Source of the DNA: Salinimicrobium sp. TH3
GTDB lineage: Bacteria > Bacteroidota > Bacteroidia > Flavobacteriales > Flavobacteriaceae
Assembly: GCF_026676115.1 (NCBI RefSeq)
Contig: NZ_JAPONB010000002.1
Location: 434,001-498,000 of the forward strand
Reading direction: 5' to 3'
Length of the DNA: 64,000 nt
The notes under the pieces were generated by a model, which was given only the letters and a program-made list of their open reading frames with translations, had not been told where the DNA came from and made no database searches. The position numbers were made by a program, and so were the translations under genes. This document shows, piece by piece, positions 3,998 to 14,468 of the stretch (position 1 is the stretch's first letter; each line of letters begins with the position of its first letter).

Positions 3998-5500
3998 ATG
4001 TCAGTTAAATCATTTGCAGCTAAAATATTCGCATCCTACGTTAGACACCAGATTGATTCCTGGGCAAACGAGCCGGTTAAGACCCAAAAAAGGGTTTTTG
4101 AACAGCTCTTAAAAAAAGCAGCTAACACTGAGTTTGGAAGAGACCATGGATTTCAAAACATCTCCGGATACAGGGAATATGCAGCCCGGGTTCCGGTGAG
4201 GGACTATGAGGAACTTAAACCGTATGTTGAAAAAGTAGTAGCGGGTGAGAAAGATATCCTGTGGCCCGGGAAACCGCTTTATTTTGCCAAGACATCTGGA
4301 ACCACCAGTGGTGCCAAATATATTCCGCTTACAAAGGAGTCTATGCCTACTCATATTGATGCTGCACGAAATGCCATTTTATGCTATATCAATGACACAG
4401 GAAAAGCAGATTTTGTAGATGGAAAAATGATCTTCCTGCAAGGTAGTCCCGAACTTGATGAGAAAAACGGGATTAAACTTGGTAGACTCTCGGGAATAGC
4501 TGCACATTACGTACCGGGCTACCTGCAACGCAACCGCATGCCATCGTGGGAGACCAATACCATTGAAGATTGGGAAACGAAGGTAGAAGCTGTAGTTGAT
4601 GAGACCATTAAGGAAGATATGACCGTAATAAGCGGTATCCCTTCCTGGGTACAGATGTATTTTGAAAGACTGCAGGCAAGGGCCGGAAAGAAAGTTGGAG
4701 ACATCTTTCCTAATTTTAATCTTTTCATTTACGGCGGAGTTAATTTTGAACCTTACCGTGCAAAATTTGAAAGCCTTATTGGCCGGAAAGTGGATAGTAT
4801 CGAACTCTTTCCAGCTTCTGAAGGGTTTTTCGCCTTCCAGGACAGGCAGGATGAAAAGGGAATGCTTTTACAGCTAGACTCCGGAATTTTTTATGAGTTC
4901 ATTAAAGCTGAGGAGTTTTATTCTGAAAACTCACGGCGATATACAATAGGAGAGGTAGAGCTTGATGTAAACTATGTAATGATCATTTCCACTACGGCAG
5001 GTCTATGGGCTTATAATCTTGGAGATACAGTACAGTTTACCTCGCTGGCTCCTTACAGGGTTATTGTTTCGGGAAGGATCAAGCATTTTATTTCGGCTTT
5101 TGGAGAGCATGTGATCGCCAAGGAAGTAGAGCAGGCGATGCAGGAAGCAACTTTGGGCACAGGGATACAAATCTCCGAATTCACAGTTGCGCCACAAATA
5201 ACTCCGGAAGGCGATCAACTGCCTTACCACGAATGGTTCATCGAATTTGAGGAAGAACCCGAAGATTTAAATACTTTTGCTTCAGCTTTAGATAAATCCC
5301 TTCAGCAGCAAAACTCTTACTACCTGGACCTGATAGAAGGAAAGATCCTTCAGCCATTAAAAATAAGCAGGGTTCCTGCCAACGGTTTTCAGCAGTACAT
5401 GAAGTCTATTGGAAAACTGGGTGGACAAAACAAATTACCAAGACTATCAAATGATCGTAAGATCGCCGATGCCTTGGAAAATATACAAAACAGAAAATAA
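3998..5500 (+). CDS. GH3 family adenylate-forming acyl amido synthetase-like protein
   Basis: A 500-residue bacterial member of the GH3 family. The plant enzymes activate an acyl acid (jasmonate, indole acetate) with ATP and conjugate it to an amino acid. The adenylation motifs are present in order: the phosphate-binding loop TSGTTSG at residues 99-105, FPASEGFF with SEG at 274-276, and YNLGDT with D343. The C-terminal domain follows with the hinge region SGRIKHFISAFGEHV. The bacterial substrate is unknown. The gene sits 5 nt after M23 and 3 nt before the next conserved gene, so it is cotranscribed with peptidoglycan and rhamnose genes. An envelope or lipid-related acyl substrate is inference only. 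Confidence 0.85.
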   Translation: MSVKSFAAKIFASYVRHQIDSWANEPVKTQKRVFEQLLKKAANTEFGRDHGFQNISGYREYAARVPVRDYEELKPYVEKVVAGEKDILWPGKPLYFAKTSGTTSGAKYIPLTKESMPTHIDAARNAILCYINDTGKADFVDGKMIFLQGSPELDEKNGIKLGRLSGIAAHYVPGYLQRNRMPSWETNTIEDWETKVEAVVDETIKEDMTVISGIPSWVQMYFERLQARAGKKVGDIFPNFNLFIYGGVNFEPYRAKFESLIGRKVDSIELFPASEGFFAFQDRQDEKGMLLQLDSGIFYEFIKAEEFYSENSRRYTIGEVELDVNYVMIISTTAGLWAYNLGDTVQFTSLAPYRVIVSGRIKHFISAFGEHVIAKEVEQAMQEATLGTGIQISEFTVAPQITPEGDQLPYHEWFIEFEEEPEDLNTFASALDKSLQQQNSYYLDLIEGKILQPLKISRVPANGFQQYMKSIGKLGGQNKLPRLSNDRKIADALENIQNRK

Positions 5501-5503
5501 TTT

Positions 5504-7252
5504 ATGGGTAATTTAAAATTACAGGGTCGCACAAGAGCACAGGAAAGTTCAAACGCCATTGAACGTATGTACATCACAATGCGACATCTTTTCAACCGTG
5601 GGTTCTATAAACCTATGGGGGTATCGGGGGAAACTCTTAGGGAAGCCTTATTAATCCTTCGTCCGGAGATCTATGGGTCTGTAGCCGAAGAAAAGGTAGA
5701 ACTCAACGGGCTTCTCTACGTGATGGACAGGCTCCCTCTGGGACTGGAGGAGTGCCGTTTTATCAACCTTACCAGTGATGAAGGCTACGGTAATTCTCAC
5801 TTTAAACCTATAGTTCCTCCCAAAAGGCGCAGGAACTGTTACAGGATCGATGAGGAGCAAATGAACATCGAGATCACCCGCGGGCGGTCAGAGATTTATG
5901 ATATTCTTACTCACCTCACCTTCCTGTTCATCGAATCTCATAAAATAATGAGACGGGTTCTTATTGACGAGGAAGGAGAAGTATCCCGGGACTGGCAAAA
6001 GCTGGAGCTGGCGGTTTTGCAAAAGGAGCCACTTGACCAGGCACAACGGGAAGTAGCCCTTACCCATACGGCAAATATCTTAGGTCGCACTTTTAGAGAA
6101 GTGACTACGATCTATCCTCTTTTTAGTACCCCGTCAAGTCCCGAAAGGTTCCTCCACATCATCTATTACCTTGGAAAACTGGCTCTTGATGAAATGCTCA
6201 ATAACAACAAACGTGTTGTGACCTTTAGCCCTGTACTAAGGGAGAGGCTTGGTCACCATATTCACGGGGAGATATGGGCAAATAAGGTGAAAGAAGTGCT
6301 ACTACAAAAGAACCTTATGAACCGCCCTTTACACATTATAAGCGCAAACATGCACAGTGTGATGAATACTCTTTATGCTTCGGAAGCTTTAAAGCCAGAG
6401 CTAAAGAAGAAATCACTTTTTGGCATTTACGAAGATCTTAGCAATGGGGCCAATGGCCAGCTAAGAATGAAGGTTATGAAAAATGCTGTTTCTGAAGGGA
6501 TGGTGTTTATTGAAGATACCAGTGGTGCTAACATTGATGTACAGGTTTTTGATACTGCAAAAATGTCCATGGTAAATCCAAAATTCAAACAGAGCAGCAA
6601 GAAGAAAGAAGAAGATAAGCCGGTGATCATGGTGATGGATTACGCTTTTGGAGAACAAGCCTACGAAACCATGGATGAAATGCTGAAACCTTACCAGTCT
6701 GAGCATGGAAATATCCATTTGAATGTGGCCTCAATTTCTATCATGGGAAAGGCGGGAATTCTCGCAGGCGGTAAAGGGGATATTATGATCCCTACAGCTC
6801 ACCTGTTTGAAGGTACGGCAGATAACTATCCACTTCACAATGAACTTTCAAAAGAAGATCTTGACGGCCATGGAATACATGTTTGTGACGGCTCCATGAT
6901 TACTGTGCTGGGAACTTCTCTTCAAAACAAAGATATTTTGAAGTTTTTTCACGAGTCCACCTGGAATGTTGTGGGACTGGAAATGGAAGGAGCACATTAT
7001 CAAAAAGCCGTACAGGCTGCAGCCAGGTTAAGAAAAAATATTAGTGAAGATGTCAAGGTGAGATATGCTTATTATGCTTCAGATAATCCTCTGGAAACAG
7101 GAAGCACGCTTGCATCAGGTGGATTGGGAACTACAGGTGTAAAACCTACATATCTTATCACCGAAAAGATTCTGGAGCAAATCTTTGAAATTCCAAAGGA
7201 GTCGGAGAAAAATAAAAAATCAGGAAAAAAGGAAACCGTAGATGGAGAATAA
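5504..7252 (+). CDS. Conserved flavobacterial protein (DUF6909-like) with nucleoside-phosphorylase-like C-terminal domain
   Basis: A 582-residue soluble protein without signal peptide, conserved next to GH3 genes in Bacteroidota; I believe it carries the label DUF6909. The first 350 residues are helical and unfamiliar. The C-terminal part has features of the PNP/UDP phosphorylase fold: MGKAGIL and GKGDIMIPTA near residues 414-430, GLEMEG at 491-496, which matches the ribose-binding E-M-E signature of that superfamily, and ASDNP with D527 where the catalytic aspartate usually lies. A nucleosidase or phosphorylase activity is therefore plausible but inferred. The tail is lysine-rich (KNKKSGKK). 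Its 3' end overlaps rfbB by 11 nt. Confidence 0.7.
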   Translation: MGNLKLQGRTRAQESSNAIERMYITMRHLFNRGFYKPMGVSGETLREALLILRPEIYGSVAEEKVELNGLLYVMDRLPLGLEECRFINLTSDEGYGNSHFKPIVPPKRRRNCYRIDEEQMNIEITRGRSEIYDILTHLTFLFIESHKIMRRVLIDEEGEVSRDWQKLELAVLQKEPLDQAQREVALTHTANILGRTFREVTTIYPLFSTPSSPERFLHIIYYLGKLALDEMLNNNKRVVTFSPVLRERLGHHIHGEIWANKVKEVLLQKNLMNRPLHIISANMHSVMNTLYASEALKPELKKKSLFGIYEDLSNGANGQLRMKVMKNAVSEGMVFIEDTSGANIDVQVFDTAKMSMVNPKFKQSSKKKEEDKPVIMVMDYAFGEQAYETMDEMLKPYQSEHGNIHLNVASISIMGKAGILAGGKGDIMIPTAHLFEGTADNYPLHNELSKEDLDGHGIHVCDGSMITVLGTSLQNKDILKFFHESTWNVVGLEMEGAHYQKAVQAAARLRKNISEDVKVRYAYYASDNPLETGSTLASGGLGTTGVKPTYLITEKILEQIFEIPKESEKNKKSGKKETVDGE

Positions 7253-8261
7253 AAAATATACGCTGGTTACCGGCGGCGCAGGCTTTATTGGATCAAATTA
7301 TATCAATATTTTCATAGAAGATAAGGATACTCATATTGTAAACCTGGATTTGCTCACCTATGCCGGGGATCTTGCAAACCTTGAAGTTAATGGACATGAG
7401 AATTACACTTTTGTAAAAGGTGATATTCGAGATAAGGAGTTGGTGAAAGATCTCTTCGAAAAATACCATTTTTCGAGGGTAATAAATTTTGCAGCCGAAT
7501 CTCACGTGGATAATTCTATTCTTAATCCTGCTGCTTTTGTGGAAACAAACATTAATGGTACTTTCAACCTGCTGCAAACTGCTTACACGCTGTGGATGAA
7601 TGGACCTTTTGAGCTGAAGGAAGAGTTTAGCGACGCCAAATTTCTGCATGTTTCGACAGATGAGGTGTATGGTACTTTAGGCGCAGAAGGATTATTTACC
7701 GAAGAAACTCCATATGCGCCCAACAGTCCGTACTCGGCTTCAAAAGCGGCTTCAGATTTTCTCGTGCGCAGTTATTTCCACACTTATGGGCTTCCGGTTG
7801 TGACCACCAATTGTTCTAATAATTATGGTCCGCACCAGCATGATGAAAAACTTATTCCTACTATAATCCGTACTGCATTAAAAAAGGAACCAATCCCTAT
7901 TTACGGCGACGGAAAAAATGTACGTGACTGGCTATACGTAACAGATCATTGTAAGGGAATAAAACTGGTTCTCGAAAAAGGTAAATTTGGCGAGACCTAC
8001 AATATTGGAGGCCGAAATGAGCGGGAGAATATTTATATTGCTCAAAAGATCTCAGAAATTCTAGACAAATTAGTTCCACGTGAAGACGGTAAGAGCTATA
8101 AGGATCTTATTACTTTTGTGAAGGACCGTCCCGGTCACGACCAGAGATACGCTATTGATGCTACAAAACTGGAGTCACAGCTGGGTTGGAAAGCCGATGA
8201 GAATTTCGAGTCGGGTATAGAAAAGACGGTACAATGGTATCTTGAAAAATATAAGGCATGA
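7242..8261 (+). CDS. rfbB: dTDP-glucose 4,6-dehydratase
   Basis: Second step of dTDP-L-rhamnose synthesis: NAD-dependent conversion of dTDP-glucose to dTDP-4-keto-6-deoxyglucose. An extended short-chain dehydrogenase of 339 residues with the Rossmann motif [10 protein letters not shown] near residue 11, the catalytic STDEVYG and YSASKAA (Tyr-x3-Lys) motifs, and NCSNNYGP. The ATG at 7242 overlaps the upstream gene by 11 nt, and the end overlaps rfbA by 4 nt, so rfbBACD is translated as one coupled unit. Confidence 0.96.
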
Positions 8262-9115
8262 AAGGCATCATCCTGGCAGGTGGATCGGGCACCAGGTTGC
8301 ACCCATTAACCCTTGCGGTAAGCAAGCAGTTAATGCCGGTGTATGATAAGCCTATGATCTATTATCCTTTATCAACGTTAATGATGGCCGGGATAAGGGA
8401 GATCCTCATAATCTCTACCCCAAAAGATCTCCCTTTATTCAGGGAGTTACTCGGCGACGGGAGCCGGTATGGTTGTGAATTTCAATTCGCGGTACAGGAT
8501 AAACCCCGCGGCCTGGCGGAAGCTTTTATCATTGGAGCAGATTTTATTGGGAATGACAAAGTAGCACTTATCTTGGGGGACAACATTTTTTATGGATCGG
8601 GACTGGACAAGCTCCTTCAAAATAATAGTGATCCCAACGGCGGAATGATCTTCGCATATCACGTTCATGACCCAAAACGCTATGGCGTGGTAGATTTTGA
8701 CAAGACTGGGAAAGTGATCTCGATTGAAGAAAAACCTGTTACACCAAAGTCAAATTTTGCGGTTCCGGGAATATACTTTTACGACAATGAGGTCATTGAT
8801 ATTGCTCGTGATATAAAACCTTCGCACAGGCAGGAACTGGAGATCACAGATGTGAATAACGCTTACCTTCAAAAGGGAAAGTTACAGGTGAGTATCCTTG
8901 ATAAAGGTACTGCCTGGCTGGATACCGGTACTTTTGATTCTCTTATGAAGGCTGCACAATTTGTGCAGGTGATAGAAGAACGGCAGGGTTTGAAAATAGG
9001 GGCAATAGAAGAAACAGCCTATAAAATGGATTATATAGATAAAACTCAGCTTCACAGGCTGGCCCTACCGCTGCTAAAAAGCGGGTATGGCGAATACCTT
9101 TTACAACTGGATTAG
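8258..9115 (+). CDS. rfbA: Glucose-1-phosphate thymidylyltransferase
   Basis: First step of dTDP-rhamnose synthesis: glucose-1-phosphate plus dTTP to dTDP-glucose. A 285-residue nucleotidyltransferase with the signature GGSGTRLHP at the N-terminus, [17 protein letters not shown], the ILGDNIFYG metal-binding loop and EEKPVTPKS. Normal length for RmlA of the short class. The start overlaps rfbB by 4 nt (ATGA) and rfbC begins 1 nt after its stop. Confidence 0.96.
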
Positions 9116-9116
9116 C

Positions 9117-9665
9117 ATGTTAGAACTGGAAAAGACACCATTAAAAGATTGTTTTTTATTGAAGCCTTCGGTGTTTCGGGATCACCGTGGCACCTTTCTG
9201 GAAAGCTTCAGCCAAAGAAGATTTGAAGAGGTCACGGGCCTGCAAATGGATTTTGTGCAGGACAACCAATCATCTTCCAAAAAAGGGGTGTTGAGAGGGC
9301 TTCACTTTCAGAAAGGAAAATTTGCCCAATCAAAACTGGTAAGAACGGTGGTGGGAAGCGTTTTAGATGTTGTGGTAGACCTTCGTCCCGATTCTCCTAC
9401 GTTCAGGAAATCATTTAAGGTTGTTTTAAGCGACGAAAACCATCATCAGCTCTTTGTGCCTGCCGGTTTTGCGCACGGCTTTCTTACGCTCTCAGAAATA
9501 TCTGTTTTCGCATACAAATGTGACCAGTACTTCCATAAAGAAGCCGATGCCGGAGTTTATTTTAATGATCCGGTATTTAATATTGACTGGGAATACCCAC
9601 AGGATGAATTCATCCTTTCTGAAAAAGATAAAAATCTTCCCACTTTTGAAGAGTTAGACTTATGA
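9117..9665 (+). CDS. rfbC: dTDP-4-dehydrorhamnose 3,5-epimerase
   Basis: Third step of dTDP-rhamnose synthesis, a double epimerisation at C3 and C5. A 182-residue cupin with the family motifs FVQDNQSSSKKGVLRGLHFQ (catalytic histidine in LHFQ), VVDLRPDSPTF and FVPAGFAHGF. The frame stays open upstream to 9087, inside rfbA, but the ATG at 9117 directly after the rfbA stop gives the usual family start and length. The end overlaps rfbD by 4 nt. Confidence 0.95.
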   Translation: MLELEKTPLKDCFLLKPSVFRDHRGTFLESFSQRRFEEVTGLQMDFVQDNQSSSKKGVLRGLHFQKGKFAQSKLVRTVVGSVLDVVVDLRPDSPTFRKSFKVVLSDENHHQLFVPAGFAHGFLTLSEISVFAYKCDQYFHKEADAGVYFNDPVFNIDWEYPQDEFILSEKDKNLPTFEELDL

Positions 9666-10504
9666 AAATATTGATCACCGGCGCAGGAGGACAGTTGGGA
9701 AAATGCTTTAAGCAGGCTTCTCTTAACTATCCCGGTCATGATTTTAATTTCACAACTTCAGATGACCTGGACCTTTCCCAGTTTGCTGTGGTGGGAGCCT
9801 TCATGCGGAGAGAAAAATTTGACATCTGCATCAACTGTGCTGCATATACTAACGTGGAAAAGGCAGAAAAGGAACAGGAAATGGCCTATCTCATCAATTC
9901 CGAAAGTGTGAGGAACCTGGCAAGGGATTGCGACGAAACCGGCTGTACGCTTATTCACATTTCTACAGATTACGTATTCAACGGAAAGAAAGATTCTCCT
10001 TATACCGAAGAAGATGCCACAGATCCATTGAATGTTTATGGAGCGTCAAAGTTGCTTGGGGAAGAATATATACAGGAAGCCACCAAAAAATATCTCATTT
10101 TTAGAACCTCATGGTTGTATTCTAATATTGGTAAAAATTTTTTTACAACCATAAAAGCCAAAGCTGAAGCGGGAGAAACTCTCAATATCACCACTTCCCA
10201 AAAAGGAACGCCCACTAATGCCCACGATCTGGCTGCTTTCGTTCTCGAAATTATTGCAGAGAATAAACTGGAATACGGTTTATACCATTACAGCAACCTG
10301 GGGGAAGCTACCTGGTATGATTTTGCCAAAGAGATCCTCACCTTAATGAATTCAGGTACAGAGCTTAATGAAAACAACGATTATCAAACCCTGGCGGTAA
10401 GACCGGCATATAGTGTGCTGAGTAAACAGAAAGTGCAGGATGTTTTTAAATTACCCATTCCACATTGGAAGGAGAGTTTAAAAGAGCTTTATCAAAAGTT
10501 ATAA
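9662..10504 (+). CDS. rfbD: dTDP-4-dehydrorhamnose reductase
   Basis: Last step of dTDP-L-rhamnose synthesis, NAD(P)H-dependent reduction of the 4-keto sugar. A 280-residue short-chain dehydrogenase with GAGGQLGK at the N-terminus, NCAAYTNVEKAE, HISTDYVFNG, YGASKLLGE (Tyr-x3-Lys) and FRTSWLYS. It ends the rfbBACD set; its last 13 nt overlap the 3' end of the convergent SRPBCC gene. The product feeds rhamnose into O-antigen or other surface polysaccharide; the matching rhamnosyltransferase is not identified here. Confidence 0.95.
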   Translation: MKILITGAGGQLGKCFKQASLNYPGHDFNFTTSDDLDLSQFAVVGAFMRREKFDICINCAAYTNVEKAEKEQEMAYLINSESVRNLARDCDETGCTLIHISTDYVFNGKKDSPYTEEDATDPLNVYGASKLLGEEYIQEATKKYLIFRTSWLYSNIGKNFFTTIKAKAEAGETLNITTSQKGTPTNAHDLAAFVLEIIAENKLEYGLYHYSNLGEATWYDFAKEILTLMNSGTELNENNDYQTLAVRPAYSVLSKQKVQDVFKLPIPHWKESLKELYQKL

Positions 10505-12392: not shown

Positions 12393-13166
12393 ATGAAGCA
12401 AAAACCTTTGGTATCTGTCATTATGCCGGCATATAATGCTGCCGCTTTTATTGCTGAAAGTATAAGGTCTGTTCAGCAGCAATCTCATTTAGAATGGGAG
12501 CTGCTTGTGATTGATGATGCTTCCAATGATGGTACTTCTAAAGTGGTGGAAGCCTTAAAGGAAAAGGATGACCGCATCAAACTTCATATCCTGCCCACCA
12601 ACCAGGGAGCAGGATTTGCAAGGAATATCGGAATTAAAGCTGCTACGGGGGATTTTATATCATTTCTGGATGCCGATGATCTCTGGAAATCTTTTAAGCT
12701 GGAAAAACAGCTAAAAGTAATGCAGGAGGAGAACATGCAGGTATGCTTCAGCAGTTATGAGCTTATGAACGAAGACGGGCAAAGCCTGAAAAAGCAGATA
12801 AAAGCCCTGAAAACACTTTCTTTTGATAAGCTTAAAAAAGCCAATTACATTGGTAATCTTACCGGGATTTATAGTGCACGGGCACTGGGAAAGATCTATT
12901 GTCCGCTTATAAGGAAGAGGCAGGACTGGGGGCTTTGGCTCTTAGCTGTTCAAAAAGCCGGTGGTGCAAAAGGAATACAGGAGCCGCTGGCGATCTACAG
13001 GGAACGCAAGGGATCTATTTCTCAAAACAAAATGGAAATGCTGCAGTATAACTACAGGGTTTATAGAAAGGTGCTAAAATATTCTGCTCCAAAAAGTCTT
13101 TTTTGGATGGTACTATTCCTGTGGGAGCAACTTTTTGTGAAACAGAAGCAGAAAGTCGCCCTATAA
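12393..13166 (+). CDS. Glycosyltransferase family 2
   Basis: A 257-residue cytoplasmic or membrane-associated glycosyltransferase with a GT-A fold. It has the N-terminal VSVIMPAYNAAAFI motif, WELLVIDDASNDGT, FARNIGIKAATGDFI and the metal-binding FLDADD, then QDWGLWL. It is of the short class without a transmembrane domain. The acceptor and donor sugars cannot be read from sequence. It lies after the UDP-xylose synthase-like gene, and its last 6 nt overlap the convergent CapK-like gene, so a role in surface polysaccharide is likely. Confidence 0.88.
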   Translation: MKQKPLVSVIMPAYNAAAFIAESIRSVQQQSHLEWELLVIDDASNDGTSKVVEALKEKDDRIKLHILPTNQGAGFARNIGIKAATGDFISFLDADDLWKSFKLEKQLKVMQEENMQVCFSSYELMNEDGQSLKKQIKALKTLSFDKLKKANYIGNLTGIYSARALGKIYCPLIRKRQDWGLWLLAVQKAGGAKGIQEPLAIYRERKGSISQNKMEMLQYNYRVYRKVLKYSAPKSLFWMVLFLWEQLFVKQKQKVAL

Positions 13167-14468
13167 AAGGGATTCAAATTGTTTAAGCTTTCCTCTTTTG
13201 CTGCGGTTAAGCATGGTTTTATGTTCAAAACTTAGATTAAGACCTGTTTCAAGATAAACCTCCATAGCTTCTTCGATCTTTTTCTTTTGCTCCTGTCTTA
13301 GCTCTACTTCAGACACATAAATAACGGTAAATGATCCTGGTTCTGTTTGTTGAACAATGAACTCCTTTATCTGCCCGTCGTTTTCTATGATACTTTTAGT
13401 TACATAATAGAATGTAAGGCCGGGAACCACTTTTCCGCTGGGAAGCACGGCCACATCATTTGTTCTTCCTAAAAGTCTCTTCAAAACAGGCTTTTTGAAG
13501 CTACTGTTTGCAGCAAGAGATCCGGTGTCGCCGATATCGTACCTAATAAATGGATGAGCTTTGTTATAAAGAGATGTGATCACTATTCTTCCTTCTTCTC
13601 CTGCAGGAACCGCTTTTCCCTTTTTATCCAGTACTTCCACAAACATGGTTTCGCTGTTGAGGATCCATTCATCCCCTGGATTTTGAAATGCCAGGAGTCC
13701 AAGTTCGCTTGCACCATATTCATTGACAACAGGAACCCCAAAAGTCTCTTCCAAAAGCACTTTGTCTTCATCAAAGAACATCTCACTGGTTACGATACAA
13801 AGTCGCAGGTTGGGAGAAACATCTTTAAGAACACGGTTCTTTTTTTTCAGAAATTTAGCGAACAGTACAATGGAACTTGTGTAGCCGTTGATATAATCAA
13901 AACTTTTCTTTTCAAATTCATGAAGGAATTCTTCCATTTTTTCGTCGCTGAGATCAAAGATGGGAAACCTGTATCTAAAGCCAACGCGATCTTTAATACG
14001 TTCCTTATAGTATCCAAATCGATCTAGAGGAATTCCATAGAAGCGGGCCTGGATAGATTTATCAAGGTCAATTCCATACCACTGGTAGCGATCATTGAAT
14101 TCGGCCCAGGATAAGGCATGGCAAAACCGGTCTTTGGCGAATATAAAAGGATGTCCGCTGGAGCCCGAAGTTTTACCTATATAACAGTTCTTGGAGTTGT
14201 AATCTTTGCTAAAGCGATCTTCCAGTGGCCGTTGCAGGTCCTTCTTCTGCATTACCGGCACCTCCTCCCAGCTGCTAAATTCACGACTTTTAAAGAAATC
14301 CCTGTAGAAGGAATTGTTTTCTAAATGGTATTGAACAATCTCCTGCCTTTTGTTTTCCACATAAGCCGCGTACTCCCCTTCAGGAATATTCTTGATCATT
14401 TCAAGAGCGTTTTTCGCCTTTTTAATGGGGAAACGATTAAGTTGTAATGAGAGGCTAAACCAGTTCAA
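13161..14468 (-). CDS. CapK/PaaK-like adenylate-forming enzyme, phenylacetate-CoA ligase family
   Basis: A 435-residue ANL-type adenylating protein of the branch often annotated as capsular polysaccharide biosynthesis protein CapK. It carries the phosphate loop GKTSGSSGHPF, NEYGASELG near the middle, RYDIGDTG and a C-terminal swivel domain with GRTNDV. The branch usually occurs in polysaccharide clusters, where it may activate an acyl group for attachment to a sugar; the substrate is unknown. It is transcribed towards the GT2 gene with a 6-nt tail overlap and is divergent from purD. It is only distantly similar to the GH3 enzyme earlier in the window. Confidence 0.8.
   Translation of the reverse strand: MNWFSLSLQLNRFPIKKAKNALEMIKNIPEGEYAAYVENKRQEIVQYHLENNSFYRDFFKSREFSSWEEVPVMQKKDLQRPLEDRFSKDYNSKNCYIGKTSGSSGHPFIFAKDRFCHALSWAEFNDRYQWYGIDLDKSIQARFYGIPLDRFGYYKERIKDRVGFRYRFPIFDLSDEKMEEFLHEFEKKSFDYINGYTSSIVLFAKFLKKKNRVLKDVSPNLRLCIVTSEMFFDEDKVLLEETFGVPVVNEYGASELGLLAFQNPGDEWILNSETMFVEVLDKKGKAVPAGEEGRIVITSLYNKAHPFIRYDIGDTGSLAANSSFKKPVLKRLLGRTNDVAVLPSGKVVPGLTFYYVTKSIIENDGQIKEFIVQQTEPGSFTVIYVSEVELRQEQKKKIEEAMEVYLETGLNLSFEHKTMLNRSKRGKLKQFESLL

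Follow-up and report, generated by a model that had tools for sequence, protein, structure and literature searches.

Enzymes of the nucleoside phosphorylase-I (NP-I) superfamily carry a Glu-Met-Glu ribose site followed downstream, in that order, by a catalytic Asp or Asn. The Arg and His of the phosphorylase motifs GDPxR, RxGS/T, and GRxHxYE bind phosphate. AMP nucleosidases (AMN; NF005500/PRK07115, with Escherichia coli Amn as PF10423 plus PF01048) share the catalytic fold, and the active site of E. coli Amn is described as N205, R381, W383, M404, E405, D428, and K436, among which M404, E405, and D428 are common to more distant homologues; in the same account, a loop at residues 435 to 443, past the catalytic Asp428, lies over the active site and is highly conserved despite being weakly resolved (PMC9584410, whose numbering is used). 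A literature search (excluding subscription papers and preprints) found no paper on DUF6909 or PF21850, and the Pfam entry for DUF6909 (PF21850) gives no function. Judged by titles, no paper on AMP nucleosidase in Bacteroid- or Flavobacteri- organisms was found, and AMP cleavage by the Bacteroidota NF005500 proteins is itself an annotation. The comparisons presented here indicate that DUF6909 is probably an unrecognised substitute for the usual AMP-splitting enzyme in the genomes sampled.

The window (the whole 64,000-nucleotide stretch of Salinimicrobium sp. TH3 DNA that was analyzed) contained the only DUF6909 copy in the genome (Table 1), with a Pfam match of 212.3 bits against a gathering cut-off of 27. 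The gene followed a GH3-family gene after a gap of three bases, and 11 bases of its ORF were shared with the following gene, which by eye was rmlB-like. The nearest relatives among genome contigs were Salinimicrobium proteins with 98% and 91% identity, and a tblastn search of viral contigs for DUF6909 relatives found none. Genes of dTDP-rhamnose type, rmlB, rmlA, rmlC, and rmlD (by eye; window positions 7242 to 10504), came directly after DUF6909, and in 6 of 7 relatives inspected, a chain-length-regulator-like membrane protein (by eye) was next to it instead. Because one or the other stands next to it, DUF6909 is the head of a surface-polysaccharide cluster. A phenylacetate-CoA ligase-like gene (by eye; window positions 13161 to 14468) encoded a second adenylate-forming enzyme in this cluster, and a similar protein was also encoded downstream of DUF6909 in relative L012. 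In Persicobacter, DUF6909 was found on large replicons listed as plasmids (CP012860.1 and NZ_AP025295.1).

Table 1. Features of the DUF6909 gene and its upstream neighbor, in window coordinates
Feature	Position	Strand	Basis
DUF6909 protein (PF21850), 582 aa	5504..7252	+	ATG start; Pfam E = 1.3e-62
N-terminal region, residues 1-246	5504..6241	+	pLDDT profile and conservation; DUF6909 the only Pfam family
Predicted nucleoside phosphorylase-I fold, residues 247-564	6242..7195	+	VIA-align rows on model
ISAN.HSV.N loop, residues 280-288	6341..6367	+	Conservation and model; place inferred from strand order
MGKAGIL ... GKGDIMIP, residues 414-430	6743..6793	+	End of core strand, turn, next strand
EGTADNY, residues 436-442	6809..6829	+	EG[TS]ADNY in 135/135
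GLEMEG ribose-site motif, residues 491-496	6974..6991	+	E493, M494, E495 identical in 135/135
ASDNP with predicted catalytic Asp527, residues 525-529	7076..7090	+	Identical in 135/135
Conserved yet flexible loop past catalytic Asp, residues 534-541	7103..7126	+	pLDDT < 50
GH3-family acyl-adenylate enzyme, neighbor gene	3998..5500	+	Pfam GH3, GH3_M, GH3_C

An AlphaFold2 model of the full protein, built from 42 sequences (the other 41 being 71 to 79% identical to that of the window), had a mean pLDDT of 77.7 and a pTM of 0.63, with residues 1 to 55 and 534 to 541 under 50. Compared to the PDB with Foldseek, the model gave 151 matches at an E value of 0.001 or better; purine nucleoside phosphorylases led, and AMP nucleosidases were at rank 10 (2guw, E = 3.2e-6) and rank 32 (7uwq, E = 1.3e-5). 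The best VIA-align row aligned 233 residues over model positions 250 to 563 (Z = 17.5; rmsd, 3.5 Å), and other rows started at 247 or ended at 564. The best 50 rows listed were all purine/adenosine nucleoside, uridine, or methylthioadenosine phosphorylases (Z = 16.2 to 17.5); AMN was not among these 50 listed rows, an absence that excludes nothing. On this model, the DUF6909 protein almost certainly has the NP-I fold. The first-pass annotation had proposed a nucleoside-phosphorylase-like domain in the C-terminal third of the protein. Such a domain was borne out by the fold matches together with weak, recurrent Pfam PNP_UDP_1 matches, and the predicted fold, which might have proved unrelated, matched nucleoside phosphorylases; the motifs do lie in the C-terminal third, but the fold extends over residues 247 to 564 or so, more than half of the protein.

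To assess conservation, 126 distinct sequences, including that of the window, were aligned, and nine more distant sequences from further families were then added (135 in all). The motifs that had been singled out from the window sequence, MGKAGIL (residues 414 to 420), GKGDIMIP (423 to 430), GLEMEG (491 to 496), and ASDNP (525 to 529), were real and correctly placed, and E493-M494-E495 and D527, on whose conservation the assignment had been made to depend, were invariant. Residues identical in 135/135 sequences were M414 to L420, K424, D426, E493, M494, E495, G496, and S526-D527-N528-P529, as well as K416, E436, D440, W487, H252, and N282. Since identity to the window protein falls to about 54% in the most distant sequences, this invariance is selective and far from chance. 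Both EME and D527 were located at the ends of model strands (489 to 494 and 518 to 525, respectively). In the model, the ISAN.HSV.N loop ran from the end of a strand at 276 to 281 into a helix at 283 to 295, and its S280, A281, N282, H284, S285, and N288 were invariant in 41/41 sequences. In the loop after Asp527, the pattern TG.TL.SG.LG was found in 132 of 135 sequences, although the pLDDT of residues 534 to 541 was below 50.

Sequence-based searches were less specific. Of the 41 members, 21 matched PNP_UDP_1 (PF01048) at E values up to 1, with a best value of 0.0015, below the cut-off, and the window protein itself had no PNP_UDP_1 match in Pfam. The next commonest Pfam match was Methyltrn_RNA_4 (3 of 41 members; best E = 0.056), and one member matched the unrelated Pox_VLTF3 at an E value of 0.0011. 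Because an unrelated family reaches 0.0011 and the best PNP_UDP_1 match, at 0.0015, is below the cut-off, the PNP_UDP_1 evidence lies in recurrence (among related sequences), and the E value itself is not what counts; the protein is placed in the NP-I superfamily by its fold and motifs rather than by the PNP_UDP_1 score. In NCBIfam, no match was found for the window protein, and among the 41 members no nucleosidase model was matched, with no AMP nucleosidase model at E values up to 10. Full-length DUF6909 and full-length Amn gave no match when compared, and sequence-only searches of the PDB, with the single protein and with a profile, returned chance-level matches only and nothing related. With wider profiles, hhalign gave P values of 0.00036 for trimeric PNP, 0.019 for MTAN, and 0.073 and 0.098 for AMN; with narrower profiles, values were 0.012 and 0.023 for AMN, 0.024 for MTAN, and 0.0038 for a single PNP. 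As far as sequence profiles go, these comparisons favor trimeric PNP and do not single out AMN.

The fold and the active-site motifs are compatible with the superfamily as a whole. DUF6909 might belong to it as a working nucleosidase or phosphorylase whose substrate is not AMP but a nucleoside, MTA/SAH, a dinucleotide, or a modified nucleotide. Trimeric PNP (PNPH, PF01048) shares the fold and was the best profile match, and GTSLQN in VLGTSLQN of DUF6909 aligned at the place where PNPH has GPxxET. PNPH differs in that DUF6909 lacks GRxHxYE (DYAFGEQA was found at that strand in 135/135 sequences) and has an EME and Asp of the hexameric/nucleosidase type. The motifs for phosphate binding in DeoD and uridine phosphorylases, GDPxR and RxGS/T, were likewise not seen in DUF6909 when strands were equated by their order. 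The loop that follows the first core strand reads ISAN.HSV in DUF6909, compared to GDPLR in the DeoD-type enzyme and GDQNR in the uridine-phosphorylase-like protein of the same genome, and the closing residues of the fourth core strand are IMGKAG in DUF6909, versus IRVGSAG (DeoD-type) and IRIGTSG (uridine-phosphorylase-like). Neither known phosphate-holding arrangement is visible in the DUF6909 sequence, and because both types of phosphate-binding motif are missing, water would be the nucleophile rather than phosphate. MTAN (NF004079) resembles DUF6909 in fold, EMEG, and Asp, and some sequences of each set have IISA at the first strand; DUF6909 differs from it in lacking the Glu of AMxxE and in having SDNP instead of SDxA (MTAN had ISD[KHR]A at the catalytic Asp in 9 of 10 sequences). 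MTAN is also rare in the phylum (21/395 genomes at E = 1e-20). A different substrate is nevertheless rather unlikely: besides the motifs not seen, the genome already carries PNPH-, DeoD-, and uridine-phosphorylase-like genes, and the exclusion described below is with AMN, not MTAN.

Motifs of DUF6909 were compared to AMN sets of 30 sequences from the phylum and 7 proteobacterial sequences. The AMN motif at the fourth strand, [FLM][LVI]G[KH]C[GA]GL/I, was found in 27 of 30 and 7 of 7 sequences, respectively, and resembles MGKAG of DUF6909; both families thus have G[KH][CA]G at this strand and lack the phosphorylase Arg there. VSDxP at the catalytic Asp of AMN (at least 29 of 30 and 7 of 7) resembles ASDNP, and both families share an acidic-Met-Glu ribose motif and an SDxP catalytic motif, with AMN having DME[TS] where DUF6909 has EMEG. 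EGTS..Y was present in 16 of the 30 AMN sequences from the phylum and absent from 14; in its Bacteroidota form, EGTS[NDG][DE]Y, it resembles the EGTADNY of DUF6909. By motif comparison, M494, E495, and D527 of DUF6909 are the counterparts of Amn M404, E405, and D428, and N282 sits where Amn N205 would, whereas R381, W383, and K436 of Amn had no clear counterpart in motif and sequence-alignment comparisons. Like the E. coli Amn loop as reported (PMC9584410), the stretch past the catalytic Asp of DUF6909 is conserved and, by pLDDT, flexible. The proteins differ in length (582 amino acids for DUF6909 versus about 257 or 484 for AMN). Two further groups of AMN-like sequences were noted. In families f22, f24, f43, and f51 of the phylum (L180 to L190), AMN-like proteins of 392 to 463 amino acids were 30 to 35% identical to Bacteroidota AMN and extended beyond the domain that matched it. 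E. coli Amn matched copies in Bacteroidota plasmid records at 27 to 29% identity; those of Pontibacter and Parabacteroides were annotated as AMP nucleosidase, and that of Phocaeicola was unannotated.

The N-terminal part of Amn is described as its more variable part (PMC9584410), in contrast to the highly conserved N-terminal region of DUF6909. Residues 1 to 240 matched no Pfam family except DUF6909; residues from about 60 to 240 were mostly confident in the model, 1 to 55 were of low confidence, and no fold was assigned. Compared to AMNp_N with hhalign, the region gave a P value of 0.04 against 0.52 for a reversed control, which was not significant, and residues 1 to 250 folded alone without an alignment had a pLDDT of 35.6 and were not used. 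A strongly basic, very conserved stretch was found at residues 105 to 129 (PPKRRRNCYRID...EITRGRS); its extension to residue 140 (PPKRRRNCYRID...MNIEITRGRSEIYDILTHLTF; residues 105 to 140, window positions 5816 to 5923) is also strongly basic and among the most conserved stretches of the family. Judging from its composition and conservation, a phosphate or nucleotide site at residues 105 to 140 is likely. The many invariant N-terminal residues, Arg included, would also be expected of a nucleotide sensor or regulator that kept the fold and pocket and is no enzyme. That role is very improbable, in that the ribose-site Glu and the catalytic Asp are invariant in 135/135 sequences, as catalysis requires, and the exclusion of AMN would need another cause.

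The distributions of DUF6909 and AMN were complementary. Two overlapping draws of 395 genomes each were made, one from the phylum and one from the class, with thresholds of E = 0.001 for DUF6909 (phylum draw) and of E = 1e-40 (phylum draw) or 1e-20 (class draw) for NF005500. In the phylum draw, DUF6909 was present in 56 genomes and NF005500 in 157, and both were present in none, compared to 22.3 expected (hypergeometric test, P = 2.5e-14); in the class draw, the corresponding numbers were 32, 261, and none, compared to 21.1 expected (P = 6.1e-17). These P values are uncorrected for shared ancestry, which the exclusion could partly reflect. In the draws combined, 65 genomes contained DUF6909 and 383 contained AMN, the rest having neither at these thresholds. 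The control, MTAN (NF004079, E = 1e-20 or better), found in 21/395 genomes of the phylum draw, occurred with DUF6909 in 3 genomes, compared to 3.0 expected (calculated by hand); one of the 3 rested on a partial match that was weak and fell below the cut-off. MTAN and DUF6909 therefore occur together as often as expected by chance, and MTAN shows no avoidance of DUF6909, unlike AMN. All 41 own- or same-family genomes and all 8 same-order genomes listed in the phylum draw contained DUF6909, and the listed genomes lacking it began with those of the same class. Judged by this list order, no genome sampled from the order of the window appears to lack DUF6909 (49/49).

Within families f5, f8, f56, and f100, DUF6909 and AMN were each present, in different genera: DUF6909 in g27 and g39 and AMN in g23 and g38 (f5), DUF6909 in g29 and g45 and AMN in g26, g36, and g48 (f8), DUF6909 in six genera and AMN in g239 (f56), and DUF6909 in g220 and AMN in g269 (f100). 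Two f100 proteins were 62 to 71% identical to those of f1 and grouped with two f1 sequences (FastTree, support of 0.92); proteins of f2, which is of the same order as f1, were only 54 to 59% identical. Because f100 is of another order and yet its proteins group with f1, the sequences suggest horizontal transfer of DUF6909 into f100, a lineage where no AMN was found (neither of the two DUF6909-bearing f100 genomes had AMN at E = 1e-20). Six AMN loci (two of f5 and four of f8) were compared to fourteen DUF6909 loci from f5, f8, f56, and f100; they showed no sign of in-place gene replacement and shared no neighbors except for one 25% match.

The gene upstream was considered as a functional partner, as the first-pass annotation had supposed DUF6909 to process AMP or an adenylated product of the GH3 reaction. 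A GH3 gene on the same strand lay no more than 400 bases upstream in 78 of 80 close relatives, which are best matches to the window protein and an uneven sample, and in 18 of 30 loci drawn from the same family; the two collections may share species. Of the 12 same-family loci without GH3 in that range, 11 had only 555 to 585 bases of upstream DNA, within which GH3 does not end. Three loci (L081, L082, and L101, the same places as L113 to L115) and the window's own gene (L111 and L112) were left out of these counts. Upstream on the same strand, GH3 was found at 0 of 24 loci from five other families (f2, 8 loci; f5, 3; f8, 4; f56, 7; f100, 2), for which 1.5 to 5.9 kb of upstream DNA was examined. 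The genome contained four GH3 genes over the cut-off but only one DUF6909, the three others being without it. Given the 0/24 loci and the three GH3 genes without DUF6909, the pair is a lineage-specific arrangement and GH3 a partner at most within the family of the window. That DUF6909 works with the GH3 enzyme, by clearing AMP or handling its adenylated product, is accordingly very improbable, slightly more so than a sensor role; processing of GH3 products was not supported as a general explanation, and nothing was found to suggest an adenylated GH3 product as substrate. AMP itself stayed plausible as a substrate, for a different reason than the neighboring GH3 gene: in the sampled genomes, DUF6909 is never found together with the canonical AMP nucleosidase. 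The best NCBIfam model for all four GH3-family genes (window positions 3998 to 5500 and contigs 11, 15, and 17) was OlsH (lyso-ornithine lipid synthetase), below the cut-off in each case; for the neighbor of DUF6909, this identity was dropped (401.8 bits against a cut-off of 620). OlsH is reported to make N-acyl ornithine with ATP, and its homologues outside the planctomycetes may use other amino acids, according to its authors (PMC12493201).

Together, the evidence leans toward DUF6909 as a distinct branch of the NP-I superfamily, an AMP nucleosidase replacing the canonical enzyme, and the chance that the protein acts on AMP in this way, with substrate and catalysis both inferred, is put at somewhat better than even. 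DUF6909 would hydrolyze AMP to adenine and ribose 5-phosphate, with Asp527 protonating the leaving base and water, not phosphate, serving as the nucleophile. The basic, conserved N-terminal region may bind the phosphate group of the substrate or that of an allosteric nucleotide, and the GH3 gene would be a neighbor in the window's family, outside the mechanism. In Flavobacteriales and in several further lineages of Bacteroidota, DUF6909 would stand in for the canonical AMP nucleosidase. A fuller version, for which the chances are just short of even, makes DUF6909 an AMP nucleosidase of a second kind that arose separately and has a conserved nucleotide-sensing N terminus of its own. In this version, DUF6909 would have replaced the canonical enzyme on several occasions within Bacteroidota, with horizontal transfer responsible at least once, and would be the sole AMP-cleaving enzyme of Flavobacteriaceae. 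If DUF6909 is an AMP nucleosidase, a gap in purine salvage would be filled in these bacteria, a Pfam domain of unknown function would gain a function, and the family would offer a clean case of enzyme replacement from within the same superfamily.
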